Assembly: GCA_023382675.1 (NCBI GenBank) | Contig: JAHDWN010000010.1 | Coordinates: 103,118 to 167,117 of the forward strand | DNA length: 64,000 bases | Source: Anaerolineae bacterium | GTDB lineage: Bacteria; Chloroflexota; Anaerolineae; Aggregatilineales; Phototrophicaceae | Direction of reading: 5' to 3' | In this document: positions 40,609 through 62,168 of the stretch, piece by piece | Numbering within the stretch: the stretch's first letter is position 1 | Layout of the letters: every line of letters starts with the position of its first letter | Made by a program: the position numbers and the translations under genes | Notes under the pieces: model-generated | What the model saw: the letters and a program-made list of their open reading frames with translations, nothing else | Database searches by the model: none | What the model was told of the DNA's origin: nothing

Positions 40609-40629
40609 ACCGACATTCTACACTGTGTA

Positions 40630-44359: not shown

Positions 44360-44668
44360 TTATGGCTGCAAGTGCTCCCTGGCTATGTCTCTTATCTCTC
44401 TGAGTAGTTTTATGCGCCAGGGCACATACAACGGGTCAACTGAGATCCACTCACCACAGGCTTCAGTGGTAAGTTGATCGATTCTGTCAAGCTGATCAAG
44501 CAGCTTCTGCAACTGTTCTTCGACTGTCAGCGGCTTCTCATCTAGCCAGCTTGAACAACCGCAACCTGTGCAACCGTACCGAGACTCACCAAAGGTTAGG
44601 ATTGCGTTACACTGAGGGCAAAACAGCGGTTCATAGACCGATTCAAAAGGATGACCTTTACAGGACAT
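44360..44668 (-). CDS. Small zinc-ribbon protein, 102 aa
   Basis: An N-terminal Cys-rich part (MSCKG, FCPQCNA, YGCTGCGCSS) has two CxxC-type knuckles that fit a zinc ribbon, followed by a helical region (LTVEEQLQKLLDQLDRIDQL) and a C-terminal helix. The ATG at 44668 follows GGAGG and overlaps the primase stop (TAATG), so it is coupled to the primase. It may be a primase or polymerase accessory that touches nucleic acid. No family named. Confidence 0.65.
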   Translation of the reverse strand: MSCKGHPFESVYEPLFCPQCNAILTFGESRYGCTGCGCSSWLDEKPLTVEEQLQKLLDQLDRIDQLTTEACGEWISVDPLYVPWRIKLLREIRDIAREHLQP

Positions 44669-45711
44669 TAGGACACCTCCATTAACCAACATCGAATTGG
44701 ATCACGTCGAAACTCACTCATCACGTAGAACTCATTGACATCCTTTCCTGCAGGCACCTGGCATGGCACCACACACGAACTCAGGGCGGCCAGCTTGGGG
44801 AGATATTTCCCGCCAGCCGCGTCAGCATCGAACCGCGCCAGGATGCGCGGCGCTGCCATCAACTTGGGGAACCAATACGGATTGACATCGGCATTGCTGG
44901 CGCTGGCGATTGCGACCGGGGACACCAGATCCGCCGCGCATTGCCAGGCGATCAGCGCGTCAAATTCGCCCTCGACAACCAGCACGGGGAGACCGGGCTG
45001 AATCGTGTCCGACCAATAGAGCGCCTTGCTGCCGCCAGCTACGCCCATGTACTTGGGATCGCCCACGGCCCGCCGCACACGCAGCGCCCACAGGTGATCA
45101 TCGGCGAAGTGCGGAATGACGATGCCACACGCGATTCTCACGGGATTGCCGTCTGGCTTGCGCCAGTCATCGAACAACACGCGGCCATACGTGCGCTCAC
45201 GATCATCCCGCGCCGGGATGTAGCCAAGCTGGGCCGCCTGTATGGTGTGATCGTGAATGCCGCGCGCATTCAGATAGCCCAGCGCCTTTTCGCCTGGCGC
45301 GGTCTCCCAGAGTTGTTCGTCGGCAAAATCCACGACGGCGCGGGCGAAGCGCTGCCATTCAGCGGGCGGCGGCTCAGAGAGAAATACCGGGCGCGCGGGC
45401 GCGGGCGCTGGACGGCGTTTCGACTTCACGCCGGGGATCTGATCGCCGCGTAAGAAGCGGATCGCCTCAGCCTTGCTCATGTGATAGCGCATCTCGTGCC
45501 AGGTGATGACATCCCCGGTTACGCCACATTTCGCGCCGTAGCATTTGAAGCCATCAGCCCACACCTGCAGGCTGTAGCCGTGATGCTCGTTATGGAATGG
45601 GCAGCGGTACACGTCGTAACGGGCTGTTGAAGTGCGCGGATTTCCCAGCTCCGAACGGGCGATACTTCGTAAATCGTGCTGAGCCTTTATGGTCTCTAAA
45701 TCGCTGTACAT
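44668..45711 (-). CDS. DnaG-like primase (CHC2 zinc finger + TOPRIM)
   Basis: A 347-residue protein. The zinc finger ligands are C37, H40, C57 and C62 (CPFH...CYGAKC). A proline-rich linker (about 98-115) leads to the catalytic TOPRIM domain with LVVEGEFDALIA (E247, E249, D251) and FDADAAGGK (D295, D297). All catalytic acids are present. It would make RNA primers on element DNA. It is shorter than a cellular DnaG (about 600 aa) because the helicase-interaction domain is missing, as in many phage and plasmid primases. The gene after the TGACAC repeats on the other side is the likely helicase partner. Confidence 0.92.
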   Translation of the reverse strand: MYSDLETIKAQHDLRSIARSELGNPRTSTARYDVYRCPFHNEHHGYSLQVWADGFKCYGAKCGVTGDVITWHEMRYHMSKAEAIRFLRGDQIPGVKSKRRPAPAPARPVFLSEPPPAEWQRFARAVVDFADEQLWETAPGEKALGYLNARGIHDHTIQAAQLGYIPARDDRERTYGRVLFDDWRKPDGNPVRIACGIVIPHFADDHLWALRVRRAVGDPKYMGVAGGSKALYWSDTIQPGLPVLVVEGEFDALIAWQCAADLVSPVAIASASNADVNPYWFPKLMAAPRILARFDADAAGGKYLPKLAALSSCVVPCQVPAGKDVNEFYVMSEFRRDPIRCWLMEVS

Positions 45712-45730: not shown

Positions 45731-45799
45731 GTTGTGTCAGTAAAACTGACACTTTGACACTTGACACAACTTTTTTTTCTGTCAATTTGCTGACACAAC
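45731..45799. promoter_or_regulatory. TGACAC/GTGTCA repeat cluster, possible origin or operator
   Basis: Five TGACAC units (one inverted) lie in 69 bases: GTTGTGTCAG at 45731-45740, CTGACAC at 45746-45752, TTGACAC at 45754-45760, TTGACACAAC at 45761-45770 and CTGACACAAC at 45790-45799. The outer members form a 10-bp inverted repeat (45730s with 45760s). A run of eight T lies between. The cluster sits between the primase and the helicase-like gene, the last copy inside the latter's end. Iteron-like origin or a repressor site are the options. Confidence 0.55.
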
Positions 45800-47377
45800 T
45801 CTCTGATAGAGTCTCGTTTTATGACCACCATTCGGGTTCTGATGATCGATGGCTTGCACGTCGCCAGACTCGATCAGCACACCCATGGCGTCTTCAATCT
45901 CTTTGCTTCTCAGGCCCGTGGATCGGGAGAGATCACGGATCGTTAGCCCGGTCGGGCTGTACTTAAGCAGCACAAGAATGCGATCCTGAGCGCGGCTATC
46001 CCGTGTCTGGGCCAGCGCGTCTAATAGCCGGTGCAATGAGCCGCGCCAGCTTTCGACAATCATCTGTGCCCGCGCCCAATGTCCGATCTGGATCGTGGGC
46101 GGGTTGCCTTTGGCTTGCTGTGCCCAGTCGATCAGCGCCAAGCTCAGGGCAACCTTGACGGCCATGATCGGCAAGCGGCCATAGTTCCCATGCAGCCGCA
46201 CGTCAAGATCCCGATCCACCGCCTCGACCATGGCCTTACGGTATTTGCGGAAAGCAGCGCGGGCCGACTCATCCATCTGCAGCGCGATTGTCTCAGGCGT
46301 GGGCGGTGTATCAACCTCATAGAGATCTTCGCTGGGCGGCGTGGGCAGTCGGTTGTGCAGCGCCTTGACTTGCTCGACAACATCCATCGGCGGTAAGTAA
46401 TCGCCGATGTCATCGGTATAGGGCATCGGCCCCTCAGGAAACAGCAGCGCGTAGCGGGCCATGTCGCCATCTTCCCAACGATCAGGCCCAACGTAGCGCG
46501 CCATCGCCGCGGGTGTCGTCGCCCCCAGGATCGACAACCCCAGGTTGTAAACCGCCGCATAGCCGCCGCTTTTGGTTGCCCGTGTCAGGCGCGCCGGGGC
46601 GTCATAGCCTAAGAGCAGCATTTCGGCTAGCCCTTGCATGTAGTCTTTCTTGCTGGCCCCAAGCAGGGAGCTGGCTTCATCGATCATCATGCCGCGCTGG
46701 GCGGCATAAGACCGTGATGCTTCTAACAGACGCTTTTCGAACTTGGGCAGATCGTTGAAATTGTCGGGCATCTTGCCAGCCAGCGAACTCATGAGCGCTT
46801 CAGGCGTTGATTCACTGGGCATGATCAGGTAGGGGAAGGCGTGCATAGCCACGGCTTGCACGGCATGAAAGCCCGTGCTTTTGGCGTAGCGGGTAGTCAT
46901 GGCTACCCACATGATATACAGGTGGGGGTAGATCCGTTCGTGCATCTGCACGTAGGCCCGCCGCGCGGTTGCCAGGCCGATCAGCCAGATCCCGCCCGCC
47001 TCTAACATGATCGGCGGTGTCATCGGCGAACGCTTGATCGCCCACGCTGAAAACTCGGAGAGCCAGCGGCCCGATGTCTCCGCAGCCTGGCGCGCCTCAT
47101 CTGTCAGCACGGCGCTCTTGTGCAGCGGCGGCACGAACACCTCAGGCAGCGCGGCTTTTTGCGGCGCGGGCTTGTGCGGATCGGCGGCTAAGACGAGCTG
47201 AGAGATTGACGGATCGGAGGCGGCGATCTTCTGCAGCAGCTTGAAACCGTCAGGTGTCGTCGTGTCGATGGATGAAAGCAGGGCGCTCACCATGGGGGAG
47301 AGCAGATCGGCGCTGCCATTCAGATCCAGCCCGACCATGCGCCGCTTGATTGCCCACGCATCTTGCAGGGTGATCAT
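45782..47377 (-). CDS. DUF3987-like replication protein
   Basis: A 531-residue protein. The central region matches the pattern of DUF3987 proteins, primase-associated ATPase/helicase-like factors of phages and mobile elements: LYIMWVAMTTRYAKSTGFHAV takes the place of the P-loop strand, ESTPEALMSSLAG, then RGMMIDEASSLLGASKK as a Walker-B-like strand, then YNLGLSILGATTPAAM as sensor. The P-loop lacks the normal GxxxxGK, though K-S-T remains. The C-terminal ~70 residues are a winged helix (ILVLLKYSPTGLTIRDLSRSTGLRSKEIEDAM). It probably unwinds DNA or loads replication proteins together with the primase. Confidence 0.72.
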   Translation of the reverse strand: MITLQDAWAIKRRMVGLDLNGSADLLSPMVSALLSSIDTTTPDGFKLLQKIAASDPSISQLVLAADPHKPAPQKAALPEVFVPPLHKSAVLTDEARQAAETSGRWLSEFSAWAIKRSPMTPPIMLEAGGIWLIGLATARRAYVQMHERIYPHLYIMWVAMTTRYAKSTGFHAVQAVAMHAFPYLIMPSESTPEALMSSLAGKMPDNFNDLPKFEKRLLEASRSYAAQRGMMIDEASSLLGASKKDYMQGLAEMLLLGYDAPARLTRATKSGGYAAVYNLGLSILGATTPAAMARYVGPDRWEDGDMARYALLFPEGPMPYTDDIGDYLPPMDVVEQVKALHNRLPTPPSEDLYEVDTPPTPETIALQMDESARAAFRKYRKAMVEAVDRDLDVRLHGNYGRLPIMAVKVALSLALIDWAQQAKGNPPTIQIGHWARAQMIVESWRGSLHRLLDALAQTRDSRAQDRILVLLKYSPTGLTIRDLSRSTGLRSKEIEDAMGVLIESGDVQAIDHQNPNGGHKTRLYQRVVSAN

Positions 47378-48716: not shown

Positions 48717-48732
48717 GTTGGAGAACTCTAAC

Positions 48733-49059
48733 ATGCGGAATGATCGGCTTAGAGAACTCCGAAAAGGCAAAGGTTTGTCACAGGAAGCCTTGGCAGAGCA
48801 GTTGGGGCTGAGTGGTGCTAAAGAGATTTGGCGCTATGAAAATGGAGAGACAGAACCTCTGGGGGAGAAGGTTCGCTTGTTGGCTATGGCGCTCGAAACA
48901 AGCGCGGATTATTTGTTGGGATTGACAGATGATCCTGAGCCATACGCGCATGAAGACATGCGAGCTGACGAACTGAGTACCAGGGAACGCCGGGTAATAT
49001 CTGCCCTGCGCAGAGGTGAGAAACTAGAAGCCATTCGGGTGATAGCAGAAGCAGACTGA
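48733..49059 (+). CDS. XRE-family transcriptional regulator
   Basis: A 108-residue protein with an N-terminal helix-turn-helix of the Cro/CI type (LRELRKGKGLSQEALAEQLGLSGAKEIWRYENGETEPL), then a LAMALETSADYLLGL helix as in Xre/SinR relatives, and a charged C-terminal helix. GGAG precedes the ATG at 48733. It lies beside palindromic operators and is transcribed away from the small-gene operon, so it probably represses that operon and itself, and so keeps the element quiet. Confidence 0.88.
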   Translation: MRNDRLRELRKGKGLSQEALAEQLGLSGAKEIWRYENGETEPLGEKVRLLAMALETSADYLLGLTDDPEPYAHEDMRADELSTRERRVISALRRGEKLEAIRVIAEAD

Positions 49060-49950: not shown

Positions 49951-50086
49951 GGCGTTCCTCTCTGTTCATCCAGGACTCGACACCCACGCCGATCATGTAG
50001 CCCGCTACCAACAGCGCCACGATCCAGACGATGACTTTGATCGCATCAGGCACAGTGTTCAGTGCCGCTAAATCCTGACCTACCAT
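49928..50086 (-). CDS. Small single-span membrane protein, 52 aa
   Basis: The ATG at 50086 lies inside the last codons of the gene upstream, with GGAG before it. A short N-terminus (MVGQDLAALNTVPD), one span (AIKVIVWIVALLVAGYMIGV) and a strongly charged end (NREERRDDDHRR). Its size and topology are like minor coat proteins of filamentous phages, but homology cannot be claimed. Confidence 0.6.
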   Translation of the reverse strand: MVGQDLAALNTVPDAIKVIVWIVALLVAGYMIGVGVESWMNREERRDDDHRR

Positions 50087-50433
50087 AATCTGCGCTCTCC
50101 ATTCTTGATCGACTGCCATTCCCGCCGGAATGGATCGGATACCTCGCTGCCTTCCACGTACAGAAGCCAGCGGCGGAAGCGCCGCCGCCAGTTGACGCCC
50201 TTACGCTTGGGCAGCATCTCCAGTAGCTCATAGACATCCGCCGCGCCGTACTTGTGCAGCATACCGACGACGTGCCACGGGTCACGAAAGCGCCCGCTGC
50301 CCAACGCGACCTGCATATCCGCGTCGTCAATGTCGATGGCTTCATACTCACGATGGAAGCCACGGACGAACCGGGGCAATCGTGAGCGCCGGTGCTGGCG
50401 AAACAGAATGCGGTAGAGCTGGCGAATGAACAT
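50080..50433 (-). CDS. Hypothetical basic protein, 117 aa
   Basis: A soluble, very basic N-terminus (FIRQLYRILFRQHRRSRLPRFVRG) is followed by an acidic middle (YEAIDIDDADMQ) and a helical/WH-like part (DPWHVVGMLHKYGAADVYELLEMLP). A second basic patch (RRRFRRWLL) lies near the end. It may bind nucleic acid or membrane phospholipid on the inner face. Coupled by TGATG to the gene upstream. Confidence 0.6.
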   Translation of the reverse strand: MFIRQLYRILFRQHRRSRLPRFVRGFHREYEAIDIDDADMQVALGSGRFRDPWHVVGMLHKYGAADVYELLEMLPKRKGVNWRRRFRRWLLYVEGSEVSDPFRREWQSIKNGERRLW

Positions 50434-51164
50434 CACGCCCCCTCAATTGTGGGTGTCTCAGTCGGTGTCTCTGTCGCTGTGGGCGTCGGTGTCATGGTGG
50501 GTGTTTCTGTCAGCGTCGGTGACGGCGTGATCGTCGGGCTTGGTGTCCACGTCGGTGTTGTGGGCAGTGTCGCTGTTTCCGTGGGCGTGGGTGATTCGGT
50601 CGGTGTGACGACGATGATCTCAGGCGGTGACGTGAGCACCACGGGCGGCCCGACGCGGATCACCTCTGGCCCTGGCACTACCTGAGTGACGACGCGCGGC
50701 GCTGCAGCCGGGGCGGGCTGTACCTGCACATCCCGCACGACGACAGTCACCGGCACCTCGACAGTGATCACCACCAGCGCAACCGTCGGCACATCGGTGG
50801 GCGTGCCGGGCGTGAGCGTCGGTGTGGGCGGCGGCGCGGTCAGGCTGGGCGTGTCGGTGGGCGTCGGTTGGGGCGTGAGTGTCGTCGTTTCGGTGGGCGT
50901 CATGCTGGGCGTGAGCGTGGGCGAGGCGGGCGGCTCAGCCGGTGTCATCGTTTCGACCACCAGCGCGCCCGCTTCTGGCGGCGTCGGTGTCGTCTCAGGC
51001 TGGCCGGTGATCTTGCTCAGGATGAAGGCACTGCCGCCGCCGCAGACAAACACCATGAGCAGGATCACAACCGCCGTGACGATGATCGGTGTCCACTCTG
51101 CCGACTGCGGCGGGATGTAATCGAGTGTGGCGTTATAGCCAGCGGGCATGAAGTGCTTCTTCAT
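50433..51164 (-). CDS. Membrane-anchored Pro/Thr-rich stalk protein
   Basis: A 243-residue protein with a short cytoplasmic N-terminus, one span (about 27-50: IIVTAVVILLMVFVCGGGSAF) and an extracytoplasmic region made of two Pro/Thr/Ser-rich mucin-like tracts (about 58-125 and 190-240). A Val-rich, beta-like segment (TDVPTVALVVITVEVPVTVVV) lies between them. Such tracts form rigid extended stalks and are typical O-glycosylation targets. The element itself carries a GT39-type glycosyltransferase. The DNA of the tracts is repetitive for this reason. Confidence 0.75.
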   Translation of the reverse strand: MKKHFMPAGYNATLDYIPPQSAEWTPIIVTAVVILLMVFVCGGGSAFILSKITGQPETTPTPPEAGALVVETMTPAEPPASPTLTPSMTPTETTTLTPQPTPTDTPSLTAPPPTPTLTPGTPTDVPTVALVVITVEVPVTVVVRDVQVQPAPAAAPRVVTQVVPGPEVIRVGPPVVLTSPPEIIVVTPTESPTPTETATLPTTPTWTPSPTITPSPTLTETPTMTPTPTATETPTETPTIEGA

Positions 51165-51391
51165 CAATCGCCCTCAGTCACCTGGCGTAAATGAATGGCG
51201 ATGGAGAGCAGGCCAAAGACAATCAGCACCAGAATGGCAATCGCGAGCAGCGGATCGATCAGGTTGTTTTGCTGCAGCCACGTCCAACCGCCCACGATGT
51301 TACGCGCCAGGTCATAGTCAGCAGTGCCCAGATCAATGACAGGCGCGCCCGGTGTGACAATCGGCGGCGGCGTTGGGGTTAACCACTGCAT
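51164..51391 (-). CDS. Small single-span membrane protein, 75 aa
   Basis: A polar, Pro-rich N-terminal half (QWLTPTPPPIVTPGAPVIDLG) faces outside, then one span (LLAIAILVLIVFGLLSIAI) and a short cytoplasmic tail, HLRQVTEGD. GAGG sits 7 bases before the ATG. It lies between the 501-aa surface protein (9-base gap) and the stalk protein (TGATG overlap). Confidence 0.65.
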   Translation of the reverse strand: MQWLTPTPPPIVTPGAPVIDLGTADYDLARNIVGGWTWLQQNNLIDPLLAIAILVLIVFGLLSIAIHLRQVTEGD

Positions 51392-51400
51392 GACATCACC

Positions 51401-52906
51401 TCACAGCGGTAAGAACTCAAGAACGAGCTGGGCCACACGGCGGATCACGCCAAACGCCGTGGCAATGATGGGCAGCAGAAACTGTGTAGCAGTCAGCGCC
51501 AGGATGATCGACACCGTGAGCATGGCGAACTGAATGAACGTCGTGACGCTGCCCAGATTGATTTCAGACAGGCCGCGCGCATAGCCAAAGAACAACCCCG
51601 CTGGCGTGGCAAGTTCGGCGAACTGCGCTTCAAGGTCTACGGGCGTGCCCTGCAGATCCATGATCTGGAAGGGCGTTCCATTTGCCATCGCTCCCAACGT
51701 CGCCAGTTGATCGCTCAGGCCAGAGGTGTCAATCTGCGGGCTAATAACAGGAATGGTTGTGCCGGGGATCGCCGTGGCGGGCCAAACCACAGATGAGGCC
51801 CTAAGCATTGACGGCGTAACCGATGTGCTATAGACAGCCCTCATGCCTGTATTCGTTGCGTGTGTTGAATTTGTTATAGGCGATCCGCGCTGTGTCCAGC
51901 TTTGACCGCCGTCTGATGATGTATATGCAGTGTGTGTATTGCCGCTCGCAACTACACGTATGCCGTTAACCGTTCCCACATTGGTTACGGTTATTTGATT
52001 TGTAGCGGTGCCTGATGAAACACTATCAAGAAGAAAGTCCCATGCAGTATTGCCAACATTCCGAACAACTTGTGCACGCCAATAATTAGCTGTGCCGGAT
52101 GCCCGATACCACATACGAGCTGATTCATAAGCATACGGCGATCCGGGTAGCGTAAAGAATAAATCGAATGTTGCATCTGAAATTGTTGTGTGCTCGTTGT
52201 TGAGAGTAATTGACTTAACGCTGACATCATCAACAACCATTGATGCGGGAGGATTAGCCGTCAATAACTGCCATATTGTGTGAGATGAATTATCAATCCA
52301 AGAATAATAACCCGCTGCTGTAATGACTTTTGATAATGAGCCGCCAAACGCCTGAGCAATTAGTTGCCCTGAGGTATAGGCTGAAACGTTTAATCTGATT
52401 TCATACCAATTGCCAGAGGTGAGAGTAGTTTGACGGATTATTGGCGCGGTTACCGTCGCACTTGAATAGAATTTAGCCGCACCTGTGCCAGCGCTCCCAT
52501 CAGGTGCAGTTTGTGATACTGCCGGATCGCTACCGACTTCACCGGACACTGACCAGCCAACCGGGTTATCACTAGACCAATTGCTAAAGCTACCATTATT
52601 GAGCAGCTCAGCGCTGGCGGATTGCTGAAATGTCGTAACCGTAAGCCCAAGGTCGTAAGGCGTGGGCGTCGGGGCCGTCGTCGCCGTCATCGTTGCCGTG
52701 GGTGACGGCGTGAGCGTGTTCTGATTAGGCAGCGGTGTTGTGGCTATCGTCGCCATAGGCGACGGCGAAACGAGCGGCGGCAAATAGGGCAGCGACCATG
52801 GCACCTGACCACAGGGCTTATTGCGCGTACAGTCGTTTTGCTGCGCAAAAGCTGGCGCGGCGATCAGAAGCGCCGCCAGGATCGAAATAAAAACGGCGCG
52901 GCGCAT
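51401..52906 (-). CDS. Exported surface protein with C-terminal membrane spans, 501 aa
   Basis: A signal peptide (AVFISILAALLIAAPAFA), a Pro/Thr-rich linker (about 48-80), then two beta-sandwich-like domains: a carbohydrate-binding-module-like one (LLNNGSFSNWSSDNPVGWS...) and one resembling exosialidase/lectin repeats (SDGGQSWTQRGSP). Two hydrophobic helices end the chain (about 450-495). It would stand on the cell or virion surface and contact glycans. The ATG overlaps the stop of the 1063-aa gene (TAATG). The middle of the gene (about 51.95-52.65 kb) is clearly richer in A+T than its surroundings, which hints at a swapped receptor-binding module. Confidence 0.72.
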   Translation of the reverse strand: MRRAVFISILAALLIAAPAFAQQNDCTRNKPCGQVPWSLPYLPPLVSPSPMATIATTPLPNQNTLTPSPTATMTATTAPTPTPYDLGLTVTTFQQSASAELLNNGSFSNWSSDNPVGWSVSGEVGSDPAVSQTAPDGSAGTGAAKFYSSATVTAPIIRQTTLTSGNWYEIRLNVSAYTSGQLIAQAFGGSLSKVITAAGYYSWIDNSSHTIWQLLTANPPASMVVDDVSVKSITLNNEHTTISDATFDLFFTLPGSPYAYESARMWYRASGTANYWRAQVVRNVGNTAWDFLLDSVSSGTATNQITVTNVGTVNGIRVVASGNTHTAYTSSDGGQSWTQRGSPITNSTHATNTGMRAVYSTSVTPSMLRASSVVWPATAIPGTTIPVISPQIDTSGLSDQLATLGAMANGTPFQIMDLQGTPVDLEAQFAELATPAGLFFGYARGLSEINLGSVTTFIQFAMLTVSIILALTATQFLLPIIATAFGVIRRVAQLVLEFLPL

Positions 52907-55900
52907 TACACCGACCTCCCCACGCTCATGATGATGTGACGAATACGGGCCACAACAAAGATCGTCAGGTGAATGGACAGAAAGGCCGTGAGCAGCGTCG
53001 GGATGATCGCGCCAGCGGTGCCCTCAGAGAAGATTGTGTTATCGACAACCCATATGCCTTTACAAATGCCCTCAGGCGGATTGACGCCACAATCAGGAAT
53101 GCCGGGGATAGGCAGCGCCGGGCTGCTGTTGTAGGCAGTCAGCAGCGACCCCAACATGTTCTGTCCAAGTATGCCCAGCTCGAGCATTCGGTTGATCAGG
53201 ATCAACGCCAGCGCCAGCAAGGTAGATACCACTGCCAAAAGCAGTGTCGATACTTGCTCGATGATGCCAAGCAGCGTATCCACAATCCTGGTGATCGACC
53301 CGATCAACGGGCCAAAGACTTGATCGATCAGCGACCCCAAAACACACCAGATGTCAGTACACCCGCCCGACTCGCCCTGAATGACGGTTGTCACCTGTCC
53401 GAGTGCCATGTTTCGGAAATGGCCTTCAAGCCAGGGGAACAACACATTCCCAAACCAGCGCCCGGTTTTGTCCATACTCGCCTGGCCGTAGAGAAAGCCC
53501 CATTGGATCGTGCGGTAGGTGTTAAACATCGTGTTCCACATGCGGTTCATCAGGATCATCAAGTCGCACTGAAAGAACCGATCCAGATTTGACCAATGAT
53601 AGAAGATCCACTCCCCCACGCCGTCGCCTGCAGGCACGGCGATACGCTCACAGTTGATCGGGAAGGGCAGCGTTTCGCCGCCGGTTGTGTCGGGGTGATG
53701 CGCAAATGGATCGTTGATACACACCCGTGTGACCGTCACACCGACATCGGCGGGCGCGTCGTTGATATGGGCGTTGATGACAAATGGCCCGCTGCTTGGT
53801 GTGGCGATTGTCACCAGCGCCTCGAATGTCACCAGCGATGACCATGACGGCGTTGATCCAGCGCGGGCGAAGAAAGATGCAAAGCTGAAAGTTGTGGTCG
53901 ATGCTGGCGAAATAAAGTCACCGCTGCCGCCGTCATACTCCCATGAGAAGGCCACGGTGCCGGTGATTTCGGCGTAGTCTGCAGGCAAGCGCGCCTCTAC
54001 CGTGATGTCATAGGCGTAGCTTTGCGCGCCGTTCGGATACAAGTTGATCGCCTGGCTGATGTCGGTGTCGTCTTCCATCCAGATTTCGCCGTCGGTCAGA
54101 CCTAAGAAGACATCCCCGGTGTGATCCCAGTTCGTCAGGCCATAGTCAAAGCTGGGGTTACTAAAGCCGCACGTGCCCAGCGCCTCCCCGCCGTTGCCAT
54201 CGGATACGCACGCGCTCAGGATCTCCATCGGCGAATTGCCGAGGTTGCTGATGGCAACCGTGTAGAGCTGCCCGGCGTCGGGATCGTGGGCGGCGGCTGG
54301 AATAACATAGGTATCCAGCTCGTAACGAACCTCATCCTCTTGCACCGTCTCCCCAAGCTGCAGGATCAAGGTTGTGGCAAATGTGCCCAGCCGCCTGGCA
54401 CGAACATTGAACTCGTATTCGCCGCTGCCCAGCGCCAGCGTTTGGGCGATCCGCGCGCCCGGCTGCAGGATCGCGCCGCTGCCGTCCGTGTCCCACTGCA
54501 CAAGGCCCGTGCTTTGCCAGGCGGATGGATCGCGCAGTTGGCCGTCGCCCATGCACGAACTGTAGAGCGGATTGACATTGCACGCCTGCAGCGGATCATG
54601 ATCTTCTGTGAGATGAGGCAATAGCCGGTCGGTGCCGCCGTTCAAATCGAGCGCAGTGAAGCTGATGCCAGTCTCACTCTCAAGGCCGATCCCCACGCCC
54701 GCGCCTATGCCTCCCTCCCCGCCAATGCCAGCGTTGATCGTGTTGATTTCAGCGGCCACCAGATTCAGCAATTGTAAGGTGTCCCCGATGATGCAACCTT
54801 TAGCGATGACATCCCCGACGCTCACCATAGGCGACTTGACATAGTAGCGGATCAAGTCGTCCGTTTGTGTAGAAACCATAACCTCATAGGCATCGGCCCG
54901 ATCCACGCGGAACATAGCCCCGCTGATAAAATCAGGAGCAACGCCTTGAGAAACAAACAGGTAGCACTCAGAGAAGAAAAACAGCCACTCAGATGATTGT
55001 CCTGTATAGACACCACATTCAGTAACACTGCTGGCTTGTTGGACGCTGATCACCTGCCCCTCACCGATTGAGAGCACCTGCGCCTGTGGTTTATTCGCAA
55101 CAGCAAAGACGCGGTTTGAGCTGTTGGCATAAATCGGCGGTCTATCCACGCCGGGCGGCAAGCCCGAATAATCCCACATGCCCTCATAGGCCCCCTCCCA
55201 GTCAATCCGATCATACGGCCCCAGCGGTCTCCCTGCCTGCCCTGTCAGGCCGAATGGCGAAGTGGCGTGGATCTCGATTTCGCACGTGTCGCTGCCGATG
55301 CTGTTCGTGGCAGTCAGCACCACGGTGTAGAAGCCGGGATCATCGAACGTGTGGACAGGCTCAGCATCTGTGCTCGTTTCACCGTCGTCAAAATCCCAGG
55401 AATAAGATGTGGCATTGGTCGAGGTGTTGGTGAATGTGACTTCTAGGGGAATATCTCCCACAACCACCCCGTATATGTCTGGCTCTGGATCGGCGCTGCA
55501 ACCCGCCGTAGGCGGCGGCGTGCCATAATACAGGTAGCGGATCGCAAACACGCCGTTGTTGGCAACGTAAGTTGATCCCCAGTGAAACACAAAGTTAGCG
55601 CGGGCGGCACCGCTGACGGCGGCTGACGTTCCCAGGTTAGTGTAGGTCTCATCCCCCGCGCCGTAGGCTGCGCAGATCGTCTCATGATCCGCCGTCCAGT
55701 CTGGCAGCCCAGAGAAGGCACGCACACTATACAACAGGCAGGCTGAATAGTTATGGACAGTCCAGGTGAATGTACCGTAGTTATTGAAGCTGCCGACGAT
55801 TTGCGGATACGGGGCCTGATCGCGAAAGTCAATGCCCATGAGCTGGCTACCATTCGCGTGCTCACTTGTGGCAACCACGTCATAGTAACGGGCAATTACA

Positions 55901-56097
55901 CCGATGAACTCCCCTGACGATGGGTGATTGCCCATCGACTGCCCATCGGCGTAGGTCATTGTCCCACTGATATTCATGTCCCATCTGCGGATGATCCAGT
56001 CAGTGGCCCAGACCTCGCTTGTCTGCGCGCCTGCAGTCGTCGGGCGTAAGGCCACAATGAGGATGAAGATTCCGAACGCGATCAGTAGTTTACGCAT
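52906..56097 (-). CDS. Large exported PKD-domain protein with multi-span C-terminus, 1063 aa
   Basis: A signal peptide (LLIAFGIFILIVALRPTTAGA) leads into beta-rich domains. A PKD repeat is clear near residues 210-285 (VTFTNTSTNATSYSWDFDDG ... HTFDDPGFYTVVLTAT). A segment near 340-445 resembles the beta core of M23/LytM domains (VSVGDVIAKGCIIGD) but lacks the His ligands. Jelly-roll domains follow, with many Cys. The last ~200 residues have several spans, similar in outline to VirB6/TrbL-like or viral membrane proteins. It is the largest gene of the element and a likely adsorption or assembly factor. Confidence 0.75.
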   Translation of the reverse strand: MRKLLIAFGIFILIVALRPTTAGAQTSEVWATDWIIRRWDMNISGTMTYADGQSMGNHPSSGEFIGVIARYYDVVATSEHANGSQLMGIDFRDQAPYPQIVGSFNNYGTFTWTVHNYSACLLYSVRAFSGLPDWTADHETICAAYGAGDETYTNLGTSAAVSGAARANFVFHWGSTYVANNGVFAIRYLYYGTPPPTAGCSADPEPDIYGVVVGDIPLEVTFTNTSTNATSYSWDFDDGETSTDAEPVHTFDDPGFYTVVLTATNSIGSDTCEIEIHATSPFGLTGQAGRPLGPYDRIDWEGAYEGMWDYSGLPPGVDRPPIYANSSNRVFAVANKPQAQVLSIGEGQVISVQQASSVTECGVYTGQSSEWLFFFSECYLFVSQGVAPDFISGAMFRVDRADAYEVMVSTQTDDLIRYYVKSPMVSVGDVIAKGCIIGDTLQLLNLVAAEINTINAGIGGEGGIGAGVGIGLESETGISFTALDLNGGTDRLLPHLTEDHDPLQACNVNPLYSSCMGDGQLRDPSAWQSTGLVQWDTDGSGAILQPGARIAQTLALGSGEYEFNVRARRLGTFATTLILQLGETVQEDEVRYELDTYVIPAAAHDPDAGQLYTVAISNLGNSPMEILSACVSDGNGGEALGTCGFSNPSFDYGLTNWDHTGDVFLGLTDGEIWMEDDTDISQAINLYPNGAQSYAYDITVEARLPADYAEITGTVAFSWEYDGGSGDFISPASTTTFSFASFFARAGSTPSWSSLVTFEALVTIATPSSGPFVINAHINDAPADVGVTVTRVCINDPFAHHPDTTGGETLPFPINCERIAVPAGDGVGEWIFYHWSNLDRFFQCDLMILMNRMWNTMFNTYRTIQWGFLYGQASMDKTGRWFGNVLFPWLEGHFRNMALGQVTTVIQGESGGCTDIWCVLGSLIDQVFGPLIGSITRIVDTLLGIIEQVSTLLLAVVSTLLALALILINRMLELGILGQNMLGSLLTAYNSSPALPIPGIPDCGVNPPEGICKGIWVVDNTIFSEGTAGAIIPTLLTAFLSIHLTIFVVARIRHIIMSVGRSV

Positions 56098-56115: not shown

Positions 56116-56138
56116 GTGGGCGGTTCCAACCCGCCCAC
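56116..56138. terminator. Hairpin between the coat-like gene and the large surface gene
   Basis: An 8-bp GC-rich stem (GTGGGCGG 56116-56123 with CCGCCCAC 56131-56138) and a 7-base loop lie in the 52-base gap after the 59-aa gene. On the minus strand it is followed by ATTCCTTTC, a poor T tract, so it would act as a leaky terminator or as an mRNA 3'-end stabiliser. Filamentous phages have a terminator in the same place, right after the major coat gene. Confidence 0.55.
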
Positions 56139-56149: not shown

Positions 56150-56329
56150 TCACTTGCCGCCGCCCAGCGCGCCCTTGAGCGCGTTGACGATGGTATTGAT
56201 CAGGCCACGGGAAACGACGACGGCGATAGCGATACCGCCACCGATGGCGAAGACTCCCAGGAATGTAGGGAGCTGTGTGTTCACACCGTCCCATAGAGGG
56301 GTGAGCGTTTCGCTGGTGATGCTCAACAT
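56150..56329 (-). CDS. 59-aa coat-protein-like single-span protein
   Basis: A short gene with the best ribosome binding site of the structural operon: AAAGGAGGT, 8 bases before the ATG. The 59 residues have an acidic N-terminal part (E7, D14: SETLTPLWDG), one glycine-rich span (about 21-40: FLGVFAIGGGIAIAVVV) and a basic end (R41, K52, K59: ALKGALGGGK). It has no cleavable signal peptide. Size, charge order and topology match major coat proteins of filamentous phages such as Pf3. This is a structural analogy, not proven homology. The gap to the large surface gene contains a hairpin. Confidence 0.72.
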   Translation of the reverse strand: MLSITSETLTPLWDGVNTQLPTFLGVFAIGGGIAIAVVVSRGLINTIVNALKGALGGGK

Positions 56330-56350
56330 CTGCGTGTTACCTCCTTTCCT

Positions 56351-56494
56351 TTAGATTTGCTCGCCCACGGCCCCGCGCAAAAAGTCGATGATTGCCAGGC
56401 CCGTGATAAAAGCCAACATAGTCCCCGCCACTCCCAGCAGTGGCGGCAAGAAGATCGTCATGACGTAGATTCCGAGTGCTTCAAAGTCGATCAC
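56351..56494 (-). CDS. 47-aa small hydrophobic protein
   Basis: A GTG start that overlaps the stop of the 39-aa gene (GTGA), with GAGG six bases before it. After MIDFEALGIY, hydrophobic helices fill almost the whole chain (VMTIFLPPLLGVAGTMLAFITGLAI written here in two parts: a first helix up to PPLL and a second from GVAG to LAII), ending DFLRGAVGEQI. It is similar in size to the minor coat proteins of filamentous phages. Confidence 0.65.
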   Translation of the reverse strand: MIDFEALGIYVMTIFLPPLLGVAGTMLAFITGLAIIDFLRGAVGEQI

Positions 56495-56610
56495 TCAGCA
56501 CCTCGAAACATTGCCATGAACTGATTGAAGCCCCACAGTAGCGCGTCGGCGATAAAGCCCAGAAGCGATGGCAGCAGCACGATTGCCGCCAGGAATGCGA
56601 AGGCAGCCAT
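56491..56610 (-). CDS. 39-aa small hydrophobic protein
   Basis: The ATG overlaps the stop of the collar-domain gene (TGATG), with GGGGG just before it. One hydrophobic helix (MAAFAFLAAIVLLPSLLGFI) is followed by an amphipathic end (ADALLWGFNQFMAMFRGAE). It is coupled to genes on both sides, so its translation is very probable although it is tiny. It is comparable to pVII/pIX-sized proteins. Confidence 0.65.
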   Translation of the reverse strand: MAAFAFLAAIVLLPSLLGFIADALLWGFNQFMAMFRGAE

Positions 56611-57332
56611 CACGCCCCCTGCCTATTTCTGGTGTACATCATGCCGATCAGCATAGCGTTCGCCCCAAGTACGGTAACAATCGCCACGTCGCCCGCGCTG
56701 GCTTCAAACTTGAATGCGACCTCCTGAGCACTAGGCCCCATGACCGTGGTTACGGTTGTGCCCTGCACAGTCACGCCCTCAGGCGGCAAGAGCGGCAAGA
56801 CGTTGATCGCCATGACGCAGTAATTGACGGCGATCCACGGCGGCATGATGTCAATCGGATCGCCGTTGCCCACGCTGGTGGATGTTATGTCCGTGGTGCC
56901 CCCGGTCGGTGATAGGACGCTCAGGCTCCCCGGCTCAGTTGCCGTGCCTACGGAGGTTGCGCCTATCGTGATGTCATGGTCGTGAGCTGGGAGCTGATCG
57001 GTTGTCAGGGTGAAACTTTCTTCTCCGCCAGTTTCAGCTAGAACACGGCTCGTAAGCCCGACGCCCTCACCAGCTCCCACGCTCACGCGGCCTCTCAGAT
57101 CCGGTGTCTTGAAATACTCGCTATCAACGATAAAGGCCGGATCGAGCGCCGCATACAAATCGGGATAATCAGCTTCAAGGTACATGCTGCCATTGGCGGG
57201 TAGACATCCTGTAGGGGCGTCAACAGTGACATAGGGGATGATCCAGCCCAAGGTATTAGGCGCTGGATCTTGCGCCAGAGCATGGGGAGCCACGAAAGCC
57301 AACAGCAGCATGAGCAGGATTACAGAACGCAC
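56610..57332 (-). CDS. Signal-peptide, phage collar-domain, membrane-anchored fibre protein
   Basis: I start it at the GTG at 57332, which has GGGGA 8 bases before it; the frame is open 5 codons further to a TTG. The 240-residue product has a signal peptide (RSVILLMLLLAFVAPHALA) and then a phage tail-collar/microcystin-type fibre domain, with its classical marks PDLRGRV, the HDHDI segment and PPWIAVNYCVMAI. A beta-rich spacer and one C-terminal span (VAIVTVLGANAMLIGMMY) end the chain. Normal collar proteins of tailed phages are cytoplasmic and lack both ends. A receptor-binding protein that is exported and anchored fits a membrane-budding virion or a surface adhesin. Confidence 0.78.
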   Translation of the reverse strand: MRSVILLMLLLAFVAPHALAQDPAPNTLGWIIPYVTVDAPTGCLPANGSMYLEADYPDLYAALDPAFIVDSEYFKTPDLRGRVSVGAGEGVGLTSRVLAETGGEESFTLTTDQLPAHDHDITIGATSVGTATEPGSLSVLSPTGGTTDITSTSVGNGDPIDIMPPWIAVNYCVMAINVLPLLPPEGVTVQGTTVTTVMGPSAQEVAFKFEASAGDVAIVTVLGANAMLIGMMYTRNRQGA

Positions 57333-57394
57333 AGGATAGATCCCCAACAGAATGTCATCCTGATCAATATCATGCTATTGGATGATTTGTATTG

Positions 57395-57473
57395 TTGTGG
57401 ACACTATGTCCATTACTGTACAATGCAAACAATATTAGAACATCTGTCTAACGAGCAATGGACACTTTGTCCA
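57395..57473. promoter_or_regulatory. Two TGGACA-n3-TGTCCA operators and a plus-strand promoter
   Basis: Two near-identical 15-bp palindromes, TGGACA-CTA-TGTCCA (57398-57412) and TGGACA-CTT-TGTCCA (57459-57473), lie with centres 61 bases apart in the divergent gap. TTGTGG (57395-57400) and TACAAT (57419-57424) form a plus-strand promoter with an 18-base gap; the first palindrome covers its -35 box and spacer. The second lies in the leader of the winged-helix gene. The winged-helix protein is the natural candidate to bind them and control the structural operon. Confidence 0.7.
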
Positions 57474-57496
57474 CTAAGATACAGACAGGGGGTTAT

Positions 57497-57733
57497 ATGT
57501 GGATTATGCCAATTAGCGATCACTTCGTATACAAAGCGCTTGAACAAATGTTGGCCGACGATCCGAATGCCCGTATCACCTATGGGCAGCTCCAAAGCAA
57601 TCTCGAATATCCGTGGTCAACAAAAACAGTCCAACGCTGTGTCGAGCGATTAGAAGTCACAGGGAACATTCGGCGGCTGGGCGGCGGGCAAGGATATGGC
57701 TATCGGTATGAACTCATTCTTAGACGCGATTAG
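57497..57733 (+). CDS. Winged-helix DNA-binding regulator, 78 aa
   Basis: The start at 57497 follows CAGGGGG; an open frame extends 13 codons upstream into the operator. The product has one winged helix: HFVYKALEQMLADDPNARITYGQLQSNLE, recognition helix STKTVQRCVERLEVTG, and a wing NIRRLGGGQGYGYRYELI. It overlaps the start of the glycosyltransferase gene. Given the two palindromes upstream, it probably regulates itself and the divergent structural operon. Confidence 0.75.
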   Translation: MWIMPISDHFVYKALEQMLADDPNARITYGQLQSNLEYPWSTKTVQRCVERLEVTGNIRRLGGGQGYGYRYELILRRD

Positions 57734-59342
57734 AAGTCAGCAGGCGATCACCGCCAATTACATGCTGCTAATTCTGGTGGGCGCGGTTGTGGCGATTGTG
57801 CTTTACCGGGCGATCCCACGGCGGCACCGCTGGCGGGCGCGCCTGGCCGGTGTCACGGCGTTTGTTGTGCTCTTTGCAGGCGCGGCCCGCCAGGATTTGA
57901 AGTATCTCCCCGCAATGGTTGTGGCCGGTGCCGTCGTCGTCATGTGGATCAACCACTTTCGGCGCGCCGGGATCCGCCTTCCCCACTGGCTGATCATCAC
58001 GCTCCCCGCGCTGATCGTCAGACTGCCGGGGATGTTCGAACCGCTGTGGTATGACGAAACGTTTACAGCGGCGCTGGCCCGCCTTCCATTCGACCGCATG
58101 ACGATTGTCAATCTCTACGATGTACACCCGCCGCTGTGGTACCTGATCGAATGGATCAATGTGCGGATCTTCGGATCGTCAGAATTTGCGCTCAGGCTTC
58201 CCGCGCTCGCTTTCGGTATCCTGTCGTGCGTGCTGCTCTATAACCTGGCGCGCCGGTTCGTGCGCCCACGGGCGGCGCTGGGCGCTGGCATGATCATGGC
58301 GCTGTTGCCCGCCCAGATTTACTACAGCCATGAGGCGCGTGGGTATTCCTTGCTGGTGTGTGTCGTGCTCTACCTGATCACCGCCGCGCTGGATCGACGC
58401 TCACGCGATTTCGTGCTGTTGTCTTACGTTGTGCCTGCTGTGCATTCGCTAGGATTGATTTATGTCGGGCTGATCGGAGTCTGGGCGCTGCTGTCGGGCC
58501 GCCTCAAATGGCAAACCGTCATGCTGGGCGCGGGCGCGTCATTGCCCGGTGTGGCCCTGGCGCTGATTCAGGCGCGTGATGTTGCCGATGGCTTTTGGCT
58601 GCAGAACTTCTTATCGCCCGCCGCGCTGCTTGAACCGCTCTACCGCATGACGCTCTACTACACACAAGAGCCTTACATTCTTTTAGGGCTGGCCGTCGTC
58701 GTCGGTGTGACTGCCCTATCGTTGTACAGCAACCGCCGCCGCTGGCGTCGGGCTGATCATGCTCTCTTGCTGGTGATGCTGTTTGGCGTACCTGGCATGC
58801 TGGGCTTTATATCGTTCGCCTGGCGGAATGTCTATCTTGACCGGGCGATGCTGCCTGCCTTTTCGATGCTGCCTATCCTCTGGGCAATGCTGTTCAATCG
58901 CACGAACAAAGGCGAGCGTAACGCCGCCCGCTGGATCTTACTGCCGATGATTGCAGCCGTGGCGGTGATGCCAAAGACAATCCGTGAGGGCGGCACCACT
59001 CTGGCCGCTGCCTGTCGTGGCACCGACATGGCCTTTACTACATCGATCAGTATGGCATTCGTCACCAATTATTATGTCGCCCAGCCGATCGTATGGACAC
59101 ATGCGGGCGACACGAATCAATCCTTGCCGCCAGAGGCAATCGCCGCGCTGGGATGGCAGCGCGCCGATTTTGAAGATCTGCCGGGCGGCAGTGTCTGTGC
59201 CATCGACGGCCAAACGGTTCTAAGCCGCCAGGACGAACGGGATTATATGGCAGCGATCCGCGCTCAGGCTGATCATGTCGTGACTGTCGATGTCTATGAA
59301 GCCGGGTTTGTAAAGGCGTATATCTATGAGGGCAGCTCATGA
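57696..59342 (+). CDS. GT39-type membrane glycosyltransferase of the element
   Basis: A 548-residue protein with about 11-12 spans. The first large extracytoplasmic loop holds the acidic catalytic motif WYDETFTAALA, followed by DVHPPLWYLIEW, as in ArnT/PMT-like enzymes that use polyprenyl-phosphate sugars. A small soluble domain (about 435-548) faces outside. It should attach sugars to exported proteins; the Pro/Thr-rich stalk and surface proteins of the element are obvious targets. ATG at 57708 is another possible start. The stop overlaps the FtsK-like start (ATGA), tying glycosylation to the ATPase. Confidence 0.8.
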   Translation: MAIGMNSFLDAIRSQQAITANYMLLILVGAVVAIVLYRAIPRRHRWRARLAGVTAFVVLFAGAARQDLKYLPAMVVAGAVVVMWINHFRRAGIRLPHWLIITLPALIVRLPGMFEPLWYDETFTAALARLPFDRMTIVNLYDVHPPLWYLIEWINVRIFGSSEFALRLPALAFGILSCVLLYNLARRFVRPRAALGAGMIMALLPAQIYYSHEARGYSLLVCVVLYLITAALDRRSRDFVLLSYVVPAVHSLGLIYVGLIGVWALLSGRLKWQTVMLGAGASLPGVALALIQARDVADGFWLQNFLSPAALLEPLYRMTLYYTQEPYILLGLAVVVGVTALSLYSNRRRWRRADHALLLVMLFGVPGMLGFISFAWRNVYLDRAMLPAFSMLPILWAMLFNRTNKGERNAARWILLPMIAAVAVMPKTIREGGTTLAAACRGTDMAFTTSISMAFVTNYYVAQPIVWTHAGDTNQSLPPEAIAALGWQRADFEDLPGGSVCAIDGQTVLSRQDERDYMAAIRAQADHVVTVDVYEAGFVKAYIYEGSS

Positions 59343-61288
59343 CTGACCTAGCCCTCCCCCAGATCCCCGGCCAGAATGCGCCCGCGCCGCTCCAACTGCA
59401 GCATGTGGTCATTAGCCCGCGTAACATCGAACTGCAAAAGCGGGCCGCAGTCGCCAAACCCCTGGCGAAAGCTGAAAAGCGCCAGCGAGAAAAACGACTG
59501 AAACAGCTTGAACAGCTTCTACAGCACGAAAGCTATGACGAGCTGATCGCCGCCCGTGAGCAGATCGCCCAGATTGATCTTGACGCTGTAATCGAGCTGC
59601 AGGCCGCCGCCCGTGATGAGCTGGCAATCTTAGAAGACCTCACAGCGCGCGATAGCGTTGATCGTGGCGACGACATGCAGCCGCTGTTAGACATCCTGGC
59701 CGATTGCGCCGCCAAAATCGATCTGGCGAATGAGCAGCACAAGGTCAATGATGCGATTGCCCTCTTTGAAGAAAGACGGCTGATCGTTGATCGTCTGAGA
59801 GAACACTCGTTAGCCGTCAAACGTCAGGCCCAGCTCGATAAGCAAACTAAGCTCATGGCTCAGGAAGTCGATGACTACCGGGCGCTGATCATTGACCGCT
59901 GGACACGGCTCGGCTACTGCCATCGTTACCAGAAAGGCACACGGACGTATGTCGAGAAGGTCAGCTTCTCGGATGTGTTCATTACGCCCGACGCCATTTA
60001 CTACAAGATCAACACCAGCCGCAAAACCCTATTCGGCGGCTGGAAAACCTGTCTCCCCTACGGCGTCCGTGTGGGCGATCACCTCTTGAATGAAAGCACA
60101 TTGGTAGAGCTTTCGACCACATGCCAGCGCCAGGTGACTGGCCTTGTCAGTCCTACAGGCGCGTGGGTTGTCGTGCATCGTCTGGACACGATAGACGGCC
60201 TCATGAGCTATGTCACCTATCGGGCGATCATGCAGTATTACCCGACAGACCAACACGACAAGATCCCGATCCCCATTGGCGTGGGCATCTCGAAAACCAT
60301 GCAGTGGATCAACCTGAGCGAATTTCCGCACGGGCTGATCGCCGGTTATACCGGATCGGGCAAGAGCAACGCCGCCAACGTCGTGCTGTGTAGCATCATC
60401 AGCCGTCAATCGCCTCAGGATGTCAGGTTGTGCCTGATCGACCTCAAGGGCGGGCTGGAATTCGACTATTACGAGCAAGTGCCCCACGTCCACAAAATGG
60501 TCACTTCTATAGAAGCCGTGCGTGACACCCTGGCGGAAATAGAAGGGCTGATCGTTGAACGTTTCGAGATCATGCGCGGAATCGCCAAAAACGTTGATGT
60601 CTACAATGCCCGCTGCCCAGAGAACCGCCTACCGCGTGTTCTCATCTTCTTTGATGAAGTCGCTTCCATTATGGATCACGGGGAGACCACAAAAACGATC
60701 CTCGCCAGTATGCGCGAGATCTCGCGGCTGGGCCGCGCCGTGGGCGTGCATTTGTGGCTTGCGACCCAACGCCCGGACATCAAAGCGATTGAAGGCGCGA
60801 TCAAGGTCAATCTGGCCGTGCGCCTTTCCGGGCGTATGCCCAGTTCGTCAGACTCCATCACTGTGCTTGGTACGGGTGATGCGTCCAAGCTGGCCGCTGT
60901 GCCAGGGCGCATGGTGCTGCAGCTTGGCCCAGACCCGACGCCCGTACAAACGCCTCACATCGTTGATCAAGATGTGGAGGATGCCATTCTGCAGGCCATG
61001 ACCTGGCGAGCACCCGCCCCGCTGCCCATTCCAGAAGCAGCGCGCGTTATCCATCAGGAATGGACACCCGAAAGGATCGCACGACTGGCTATCACTCACT
61101 TGGATGGCAACATTTCAGCTCACGCCGTCTGGAATGAAACCAATGAAAGTCTCTCCCAGCGCCAGGCGCGTGAGCTTGTCGAAAAAGTATGGCAGCTTGC
61201 CGAGGAAGGGATAGAGATAGATGAAGTGACATACGTCTTGAAACGTGGCAAGGGCAAAAACCGCCGCCTCGTACCTTTGATTTCTTGA
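59339..61288 (+). CDS. FtsK/SpoIIIE-HerA-family ATPase of the element
   Basis: A 649-residue protein without membrane spans. Residues ~35-185 are a charged coiled coil. The motor domain has Walker A GYTGSGKSN (336-344), the FtsK-typical LCLIDLKGGLEFDYYEQ, Walker B RVLIFFDEVASI (D439, E440), the arginine-rich REISRLGRAVGVHLWLATQRPD, and KVNLAVRLSGR. A C-terminal ~100 residues (TPERIARLAITHLDG ...) may be a winged helix. Related motors pump double-stranded DNA (TraB of actinomycete ICEs, TcpA) or drive virion assembly (relatives of filamentous phage pI/Zot and PRD1-type packaging ATPases). Confidence 0.9.
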   Translation: MTDLALPQIPGQNAPAPLQLQHVVISPRNIELQKRAAVAKPLAKAEKRQREKRLKQLEQLLQHESYDELIAAREQIAQIDLDAVIELQAAARDELAILEDLTARDSVDRGDDMQPLLDILADCAAKIDLANEQHKVNDAIALFEERRLIVDRLREHSLAVKRQAQLDKQTKLMAQEVDDYRALIIDRWTRLGYCHRYQKGTRTYVEKVSFSDVFITPDAIYYKINTSRKTLFGGWKTCLPYGVRVGDHLLNESTLVELSTTCQRQVTGLVSPTGAWVVVHRLDTIDGLMSYVTYRAIMQYYPTDQHDKIPIPIGVGISKTMQWINLSEFPHGLIAGYTGSGKSNAANVVLCSIISRQSPQDVRLCLIDLKGGLEFDYYEQVPHVHKMVTSIEAVRDTLAEIEGLIVERFEIMRGIAKNVDVYNARCPENRLPRVLIFFDEVASIMDHGETTKTILASMREISRLGRAVGVHLWLATQRPDIKAIEGAIKVNLAVRLSGRMPSSSDSITVLGTGDASKLAAVPGRMVLQLGPDPTPVQTPHIVDQDVEDAILQAMTWRAPAPLPIPEAARVIHQEWTPERIARLAITHLDGNISAHAVWNETNESLSQRQARELVEKVWQLAEEGIEIDEVTYVLKRGKGKNRRLVPLIS

Positions 61289-62082: not shown

Positions 62083-62106
62083 AAAGCGGCTTACAGGTTC
62101 GCTTAG
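62083..62106 (+). repeat. attR core: orphan copy of rnpB 3' end
   Basis: An exact copy of 40581-40604. No other part of RNase P RNA lies beside it, so it is the displaced original end of the gene or the element's own copy. The next bases (T, CACACC, A, AC) match the left side with two substitutions. With this copy the P1 helix would have a U-U mismatch at the step where the left copy gives U-G. Confidence 0.92.
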
Positions 62107-62168
62107 TCACACCAACTGAAAGCTCTGTAGACCAGGACTTTCACACATTTTGTACAGATAAAAAGTGC

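Follow-up and report, generated by a model that had tools for sequence, protein, structure and literature searches.

Coat-like 59-residue protein and a filamentous-phage-style gene cassette in integrated elements of Chloroflexota

Known filamentous phages and the locus of the window

Filamentous phages are among the closest described counterparts of the locus reported here, a 21.5-kb integrated element (positions 40581-62116) in a 64,000-nt stretch of a contig from an Anaerolineae bacterium, the whole of which we call the window, and in particular of a gene in that element for a coat-like protein of 59 amino acids (aa). In M13 and the other Ff phages (Inoviridae) the structural genes stand in the order VII-IX-VIII-III-VI, which, like the charge order of the coat, resembles the element; the small genes of M13 overlap by 4 nt and a 9-bp stem lies directly after gene VIII. 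The same structural gene order is given for phiOH3 in the available part of PMC4763002. Unlike the element, M13 has the Zot-type ATPase pI, the secretin pIV and the initiator pII in a genome of 6.4 kb and a weak Shine-Dalgarno (SD) sequence before its coat gene, and its coat family (PF19199) is not matched by the window protein. The Propionibacterium phage B5 (Paulinoviridae, Tubulavirales) recalls the element in the order of orf2 to orf7, which encode a 219-aa protein, two tiny span proteins (32 and 27 aa), a 57-aa coat, a 485-aa anchored protein and a 90-aa two-span protein, and in its coat SD, the strongest of the nine genes compared, as in the window. It differs in its size of 5.8 kb, its Zot-type ATPase (PF05707, 1.5e-5) and its putative replication protein, and its 219-aa gene, which has no Pfam match, is like the collar protein of the element in place and length only. 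The two Pseudomonas phages are Pf3 (5.8 kb), in which, as in the element, a short coat (44 aa) is followed by a stem (7 bp) and a long virion protein (483 aa), and Pf1 (7.3 kb), which has a 4-bp stem within 70 nt and an annotated terminator ~100 nt after the coat gene; neither has a significant coat match to the element. The coats of M13, Pf3 and B5 share their charge order with those of the element and its relatives.

The window holds an integrated element because a 34-bp direct repeat, adjoining the integrase gene, brackets the genes from the integrase to an FtsK-type ATPase and because the core of this repeat occurs only there, with exactly two copies of the 24-bp core in the 6.4-Mb genome when two mismatches are allowed. 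Within the element, a structural operon runs leftwards from 57347 to ~50 kb. Pfam-type scans covered 30 window proteins, 29 of them within the element, with some small open reading frames (ORFs) outside the scans, and proteins are called exported by eye from signal-peptide-like N-termini.

The coat-like gene and its relatives

The gene is a minus-strand ORF (56329..56150, ATG to TGA) that encodes MLSITSETLTPLWDGVNTQLPTFLGVFAIGGGIAIAVVVSRGLINTIVNALKGALGGGK, with a charge of -2 before the hydrophobic span, 0 within it and +3 after it and with Lys as the final residue. The ORF and the charges confirm, on the minus strand, the original prediction of a 59-aa gene with an acidic N-terminus, a single Gly-rich span, a basic C-terminus and a terminal Lys, whereas the remark that it is too short for common gene callers was overstated, as its 180 nt exceed their usual minimum of 90 nt. 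AlphaFold2 predicted one helix for the protein, residues 6-56 (8 sequences; predicted local distance difference test score, pLDDT, 73; predicted template modelling score, pTM, 0.29), and neither Pfam nor PHROG, both scanned, assigned it a family. The reading frame is under selection, because the ratio of nonsynonymous to synonymous substitution (dN/dS, Nei-Gojobori method, NG86) is ~0.23 between the coat genes of the window and the related locus L052, which share 64% protein identity, and ~0.06 for the pair L146 and L147; synonymous sites are nearly saturated in both comparisons.

Relatives were found by searches with the 1063-aa and 501-aa proteins of the operon and then with FtsK and coat alignments, which gave 18 elements: the window, L051 (genome G408), L052 (genome G412), the nine loci L146-L154 found by a coat profile (L146 and L148 share one genome), L057, L060, L061, L062 and L072 found through FtsK, and contig G000:C65. 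L055, L058, L054 and G104:C26 show L147, L051, L052 and L060, respectively, a second time and are not counted separately, and the FtsK loci L056 and L059, where the contig stops at FtsK towards the operon, stand outside the counts. In L057, L060 and L062 the coat was identified from its location and appearance, as the coat profile gave it no safe E-value, and the first coat profile scored L061 at 0.19 and L072 at 0.048. L154 (4100-5273) and L062 (1778-2179) hold two coat-like genes each, which brings the coat-like sequences to 20. The named relatives are all Chloroflexota, five of ten being listed as 'Anaerolineae bacterium' (L054-L056, L058, L059), and the carrier of L060 is Bellilinea caldifistulae GOMI-1.

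Identity to the window coat is 64% in L052, 46% in L051 (same genus) and 13-48% in the others. An apparent signal peptide is present in the six loci L149-L154 and in G000:C65 and in none of the others, a division that recalls M13 and Pf1 on one side and Pf3 on the other; in the members with this peptide the start codon is uncertain, and a contig end truncates L153. The mature length of all 20 sequences is 50-67 aa; every one of the 20 has a net negative charge ahead of the span, and 17 have a net positive charge behind it (zero in three).

The order of the neighbouring genes recurs as well. In the 17 elements whose upstream DNA is intact (L153, cut by the contig end, was excluded), a script looked for span ORFs of 30-62 aa in the stretch from the C-terminal span of the anchor protein to the coat gene, and it found two of them in 15 elements; the exceptions are L148, where the second small gene is visible by eye, and G000:C65, where one was found. 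Counted from gene tables, a long exported, anchored protein directly follows the coat in 12 of 18 elements (window, L051, L146-L149, L153, L057, L060, L061, L062 and L072), and another gene, mostly a Pro/Thr-rich one, takes this place in L052, L150, L151, L152, L154 and G000:C65. A collar-domain protein is encoded in the operon of six of the eight elements scanned (window, L052 and L146-L149), and in L149 a different gene precedes the small ones; spans like the C-terminal one of the 245-aa collar protein are also seen by eye in relatives. Two tests for a filamentous phage gave a positive result, namely short one-span structural proteins (30-90 aa) and, in the window, an order of minor, minor and major coat and adsorption genes like VII-IX-VIII-III.

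The coat gene was also said to have the best ribosome binding site of its operon, eight bases before the start. In the window its SD energy, -13.2 kcal/mol, does rank first of the ten genes compared, and the motif AAAGGAGGT stands before the start, at a distance of 9 bases rather than 8. By itself the motif is not rare (two copies of the 8-mer AAAGGAGG in 64 kb against 0.99 expected); it counts because of its place before the coat start and because GAAAGGAGG also precedes the homologous genes in L051, L052, L057 and L060. Across elements, the median SD energy is -9.3 for the coat against -6.3 for other operon genes (p 0.008), and the coat has the strongest SD in 10 of 17 operons.

The hairpin that follows the stop codon, GTGGGCGG-loop-CCGCCCAC with the tail ATTCCTTTCA (56138..56116), is likewise unremarkable when taken alone, with a downstream fold z of -1.05 and with 8 terminator-like sites in the window against 6.7 expected. 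Across elements, however, the 70 nt that follow the stop codon contain a perfect stem of 8 bp or longer in 11 of 19 coat genes but in 4 of the 96 other operon genes considered, and such a stem is present in 2.1% of 5100 sequence windows of 70 nt taken at random; stem length differs between coat and other genes with a Mann-Whitney p of 4.6e-6, which is optimistic as the sequences are related. The 96 other genes were hand-listed, with the tiny genes of several elements not in the list, and the stem and SD statistics do not include G000:C65. Among M13, Pf3, Pf1 and B5 only M13 has such a stem. The original prediction is borne out in that an 8-bp, recurrent hairpin lies directly after the gene; since it has no long T run, the hairpin may be a terminator or a stem that stabilises the mRNA. 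The single-sequence signals, two copies of the 8-mer and the z of -1.05, are modest, and the case rests on the comparison across elements.

Weighing the readings

In light of these data, the 59-aa protein is probably the major subunit of a putative membrane-built, filament-like particle. Of the explanations considered this is the best supported, because of the recurrence in 18 elements, the charge order, the gene order and the excess of hairpins over the neighbouring genes. The att repeats, an att-to-att junction in the related element on G000:C65, the single predicted helix, the SD rank and the collar-domain proteins speak for it as well. The proposal that the protein is the chief structural component of a particle like those of filamentous phages thus stands as the preferred explanation, whereas membership in the known filamentous phages is not supported, with no Zot and no coat homology. 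When the coat profile was compared with 24 proteins of M13, Pf3, B5 and Pf1, the top three were M13 pVIII (E 0.008) and the coats of B5 (0.036) and Pf3 (0.038), with the Pf1 coat seventh, a ranking that suggests likeness and is not proof of homology.

A number of observations weigh against this reading. E-values of 0.008-0.04 in a set of 24 proteins do not amount to homology, no known coat, that of B5 included, gave a significant sequence match, and the only phage coat among 14 sequences at E<=10 in a PDB search was PH75, tenth with E 0.56 and below unrelated proteins. The charge order is what the positive-inside rule gives for any N-out span, and the presence of a coat in every element is partly by construction, because some of the elements entered the set through the coat profile. 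No collar match was found in L152 and G000:C65, two of the eight elements scanned. In seven of the 17 operons another gene has a better SD than the coat, and five of these seven belong to signal-peptide members with an uncertain start codon; the coat SD is also not the strongest of the genes compared in M13, Pf1 and Pf3, so that the best ribosome binding site fails as a general mark of coats, B5 being the only one of the four phages to have it, and the B5 coat gene has no stem after it. The Zot/pI family PF05707 passed the cut-off in none of 11 carrier genomes nor in the 30 window proteins; this profile does find M13 pI (3e-53) and the divergent B5 orf8 (1.5e-5), and three matches below the cut-off (E 0.003-0.004) lie on other contigs. 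The Pfam matches of the 30 window proteins include no rolling-circle initiator and instead a primase and a DUF3987 protein, of a family that we take to be often primase-helicase like. The FtsK-type ATPase, the sole pump candidate among the proteins scanned, lacks a hydrophobic span in the relatives by a simple scan, and primase-type replication with FtsK, a pump for double-stranded DNA (dsDNA), also fits a conjugative element. Finally, pattern-based scans of virus contigs including IMG/VR, with single queries and with FtsK and large-protein alignments, gave no relative of the element among the matches listed.

Further searches were made beyond the set. Candidates from a deep FtsK alignment in IMG/VR were rejected, the best 80 of 114 relatives all lying within query residues 224-582 (the ATPase core and its surroundings). 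When the coat profile was run on the ORFs of 40-140 aa in L063-L133 and L158-L237, 10,675 in all, the only results were L072 (Anaerolineales), which the set already included, and a weak match in L124 (E 0.022); among named phages no FtsK match covered 80% and none was found for the 1063-aa protein. A single-sequence search with the 59-aa protein in 400 genomes of the phylum gave matches at E<=0.1 in 57 genomes, with ~40 expected by chance; the better non-self matches sit in frames of 140-520 aa, and the non-self matches were judged to be accidental matches to spans. In the same 400 genomes the coat profile reached E<=0.001 in two, which alone have the element-type FtsK at E<=1e-180. This co-occurrence is weak evidence, because both profiles include the window and L060 and the second genome, G104, is that of L060; only the matches in G000:C65 are independent of the profile sequences. 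Four further genomes (G222, G246, G267, G309) match the FtsK profile at intermediate strength (1e-85 to 1e-92) and yielded no coat at E<=0.001.

The main rival explanation is an element like the actinomycete integrative and conjugative elements (AICEs), in which FtsK would move dsDNA directly between cells and the operon would form a surface or septum-crossing mating apparatus; the 59-aa protein would then be either the subunit made in abundance for this apparatus or a membrane protein of the spread (Spd-like) kind. We consider it rather unlikely, and nevertheless a serious rival, because the chassis of integrase, primase or Prim-Pol and FtsK is close to the AICE set of Tyr integrase, replication gene and FtsK, as described in the available part of PMC3218068; integrase and FtsK are both present in the window. 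The related element on contig G000:C65 (L242, L243; same assembly, 23,275 bp) has genes for a Prim-Pol (3e-24), a D5-type protein, an integrase, FtsK and YdjM. Bases 12-5209 of this contig recur 18,066 bp later with zero mismatches, and the end of contig C22 and the starts of C43 and C65 (after 11 bases) share the same 44-bp attachment (att) core. Because of the 18,066-bp repeat and the contig breaks at this core, the element was assembled through an att-to-att junction, as a free circle of 18,066 bp or as tandem copies. A tRNA gene adjoins the element in 4 of 18 loci scanned, as in AICEs. AICEs are, however, confined to Actinomycetales in the text consulted (PMC3218068), whereas the relatives here are Chloroflexota/Anaerolineae, and the window has DUF3987 and a primase without RepSA, RepAM or Prim-Pol. 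The phage-like structural operon, with its exported tail-collar and PKD proteins in a VII-IX-VIII-III-like order, falls outside the AICE definition as given there, and the structural cassette is not well explained by such an element.

It is very improbable that the element builds a pilus of the type IV secretion kind in which the 59-aa protein serves as the pilin (VirB2/TrbC-like): the weak Pfam TrbC/VirB2 matches in 3 of 17 coat members (best 0.00078) have a counterpart in M13 pVIII itself (0.00018), the single continuous helix predicted for residues 6-56 with one hydrophobic span would not form the two-span hairpin fold of VirB2, and no VirB4-type family is among the matches of the 30 window proteins. 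We give as little credence to the idea that the protein is a small holin, regulator or membrane toxin with no more than a likeness to a coat, for which weak PHROG holin matches in 3 of 17 members (best 0.0017) could be cited, in view of the place that the gene keeps within a structural-type operon from element to element in the set compared, the tandem coat copies in L154 and L062, the lack of a lysis enzyme among the 30 proteins scanned and the lack of any holin, toxin or regulator match for the window protein. Homologues in a regulator or toxin family, which would have told against a coat, were not found at an accepted score, the holin and TrbC/VirB2 matches being weak.

As the major subunit, the 59-aa protein would enter the membrane N-out/C-in without a signal peptide, as the Pf3 coat does, and the coats of several relatives would use their apparent signal peptides, as M13 pVIII does. 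The very strong ribosome site and the hairpin, which may end or stabilise a short upstream transcript, would provide the coat in excess over the tip proteins, and the two tiny span proteins together with the collar, PKD and 501-aa proteins would make up the particle tips and the host-binding end, the 1063-aa PKD protein being the putative adsorption protein. The element DNA would be replicated as a circle by the primase/helicase-type genes, and the FtsK-type ATPase, replacing pI/Zot, would drive it into the growing particle and perhaps extrude it. The elements seem to combine a structural gene set in the style of filamentous phages with a different DNA-pumping motor.

Other genes of the element and significance

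The features of the element are collected in Table 1.

Table 1. Positions of the genes and signals of the integrated element in the window.
Feature	Position	Strand	Remark
Att-like direct repeat, left end	40581..40614	.	24-nt core twice in genome
Tyrosine integrase	40630..41502	-	PF00589 7e-31
RNase_T-type exonuclease	43408..43968	-	PF00929 1e-17
DnaG-type primase-like protein (Toprim_2)	44668..45711	-	PF13155 7e-6
DUF3987 protein	45782..47377	-	PF13148 7e-14
HTH_3 repressor-like protein	48718..49059	+	
118-aa protein close to operon end	50080..50436	-	similar genes in relatives by eye
244-aa protein, N-terminal span, Pro/Thr-rich repeats	50433..51167	-	similar genes in relatives by eye
75-aa one-span protein	51164..51391	-	
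501-aa exported protein, two C-terminal spans	51401..52906	-	pVI-like by position
1063-aa exported PKD-domain protein, several C-terminal hydrophobic segments	52906..56097	-	pIII-like by position
GC-rich 8-bp hairpin after coat stop	56116..56138	-	stem of at least 8 bp at same place in 11/19 coat genes
59-aa coat-like protein	56150..56329	-	predicted single helix; acidic N-terminus, Gly-rich span, basic C-terminus
Ribosome binding site AAAGGAGGT	56339..56347	-	9 nt before coat ATG; strongest among 10 operon genes compared
47-aa one-span membrane protein	56351..56494	-	pIX-like by position
40-aa membrane protein	56491..56613	-	pVII-like by position; 4-nt overlap with next gene
Tail-collar domain exported protein, 245 aa, C-terminal span	56610..57347	-	Pfam PF07484 2.6e-8; PHROG tail families
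91-aa protein, divergent from structural operon	57458..57733	+	weak helix-turn-helix matches (below cut-off)
548-aa PMT_2-type glycosyltransferase	57696..59342	+	PF13231 1.2e-11
649-aa FtsK/SpoIIIE-type ATPase, candidate DNA pump	59339..61288	+	PF01580 2e-31
Att-like direct repeat, right end	62083..62116	.	32/34 identical to left copy

The AlphaFold2 model of the 1063-aa protein was unusable (pLDDT 39). Residues 86-371 in the middle of the 501-aa protein are missing from shorter homologues, and a 52% identical copy of this part lies on the small contig G000:C86 of the same genome (L053, 2731-3801), whose proteins gave no PHROG matches; the middle part is perhaps a swapped module for host binding. 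The Pro/Thr-rich tract of the 244-aa protein is encoded by repeats with an 18-bp period at 50443-50606. Next to the FtsK gene lies the PMT_2-type glycosyltransferase, which might glycosylate exported particle proteins, and similar-looking multi-span genes occupy that place in several relatives. A YdjM-like membrane protein (PF04307, tested in L242 63-539 only) also adjoins FtsK, and genes resembling YdjM are beside FtsK in L057, L059, L146, L148, L149, L151 and L154. Just beyond the right att repeat, a second RNase_T exonuclease gene (62169-62747), 77% identical over 135 nt to that of the element, is possibly a remnant of another element.

These elements are a family of mobile elements in Chloroflexota that has been little noticed so far. 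Searches of the open PMC literature gave no paper that describes them by title or abstract and none that joins Tubulavirales and Chloroflexota. In a large inovirus survey pI, an ATPase of the FtsK-HerA superfamily, was the only universal marker according to the available text, in the main part of which 'chloroflex' does not occur (PMC6813254); because of this marker, a family with an FtsK pump and a filamentous cassette would be invisible to that survey. We offer as a tentative possibility that the elements form a class of their own, filamentous viruses extruded from the membrane of Chloroflexota, in which an FtsK-type pump evolved or was swapped in for pI/Zot, replication is of the primase/helicase type and possibly dsDNA lies in a pVIII-like single-helix coat, and which searches keyed to pI/Zot would have missed. 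If the particle exists as proposed, filamentous-phage-like particles would extend to Chloroflexota, and it would become testable whether FtsK, normally a dsDNA translocase, can load a pVIII-like filament, for which Bellilinea caldifistulae GOMI-1, as a named carrier strain, makes testing practical.
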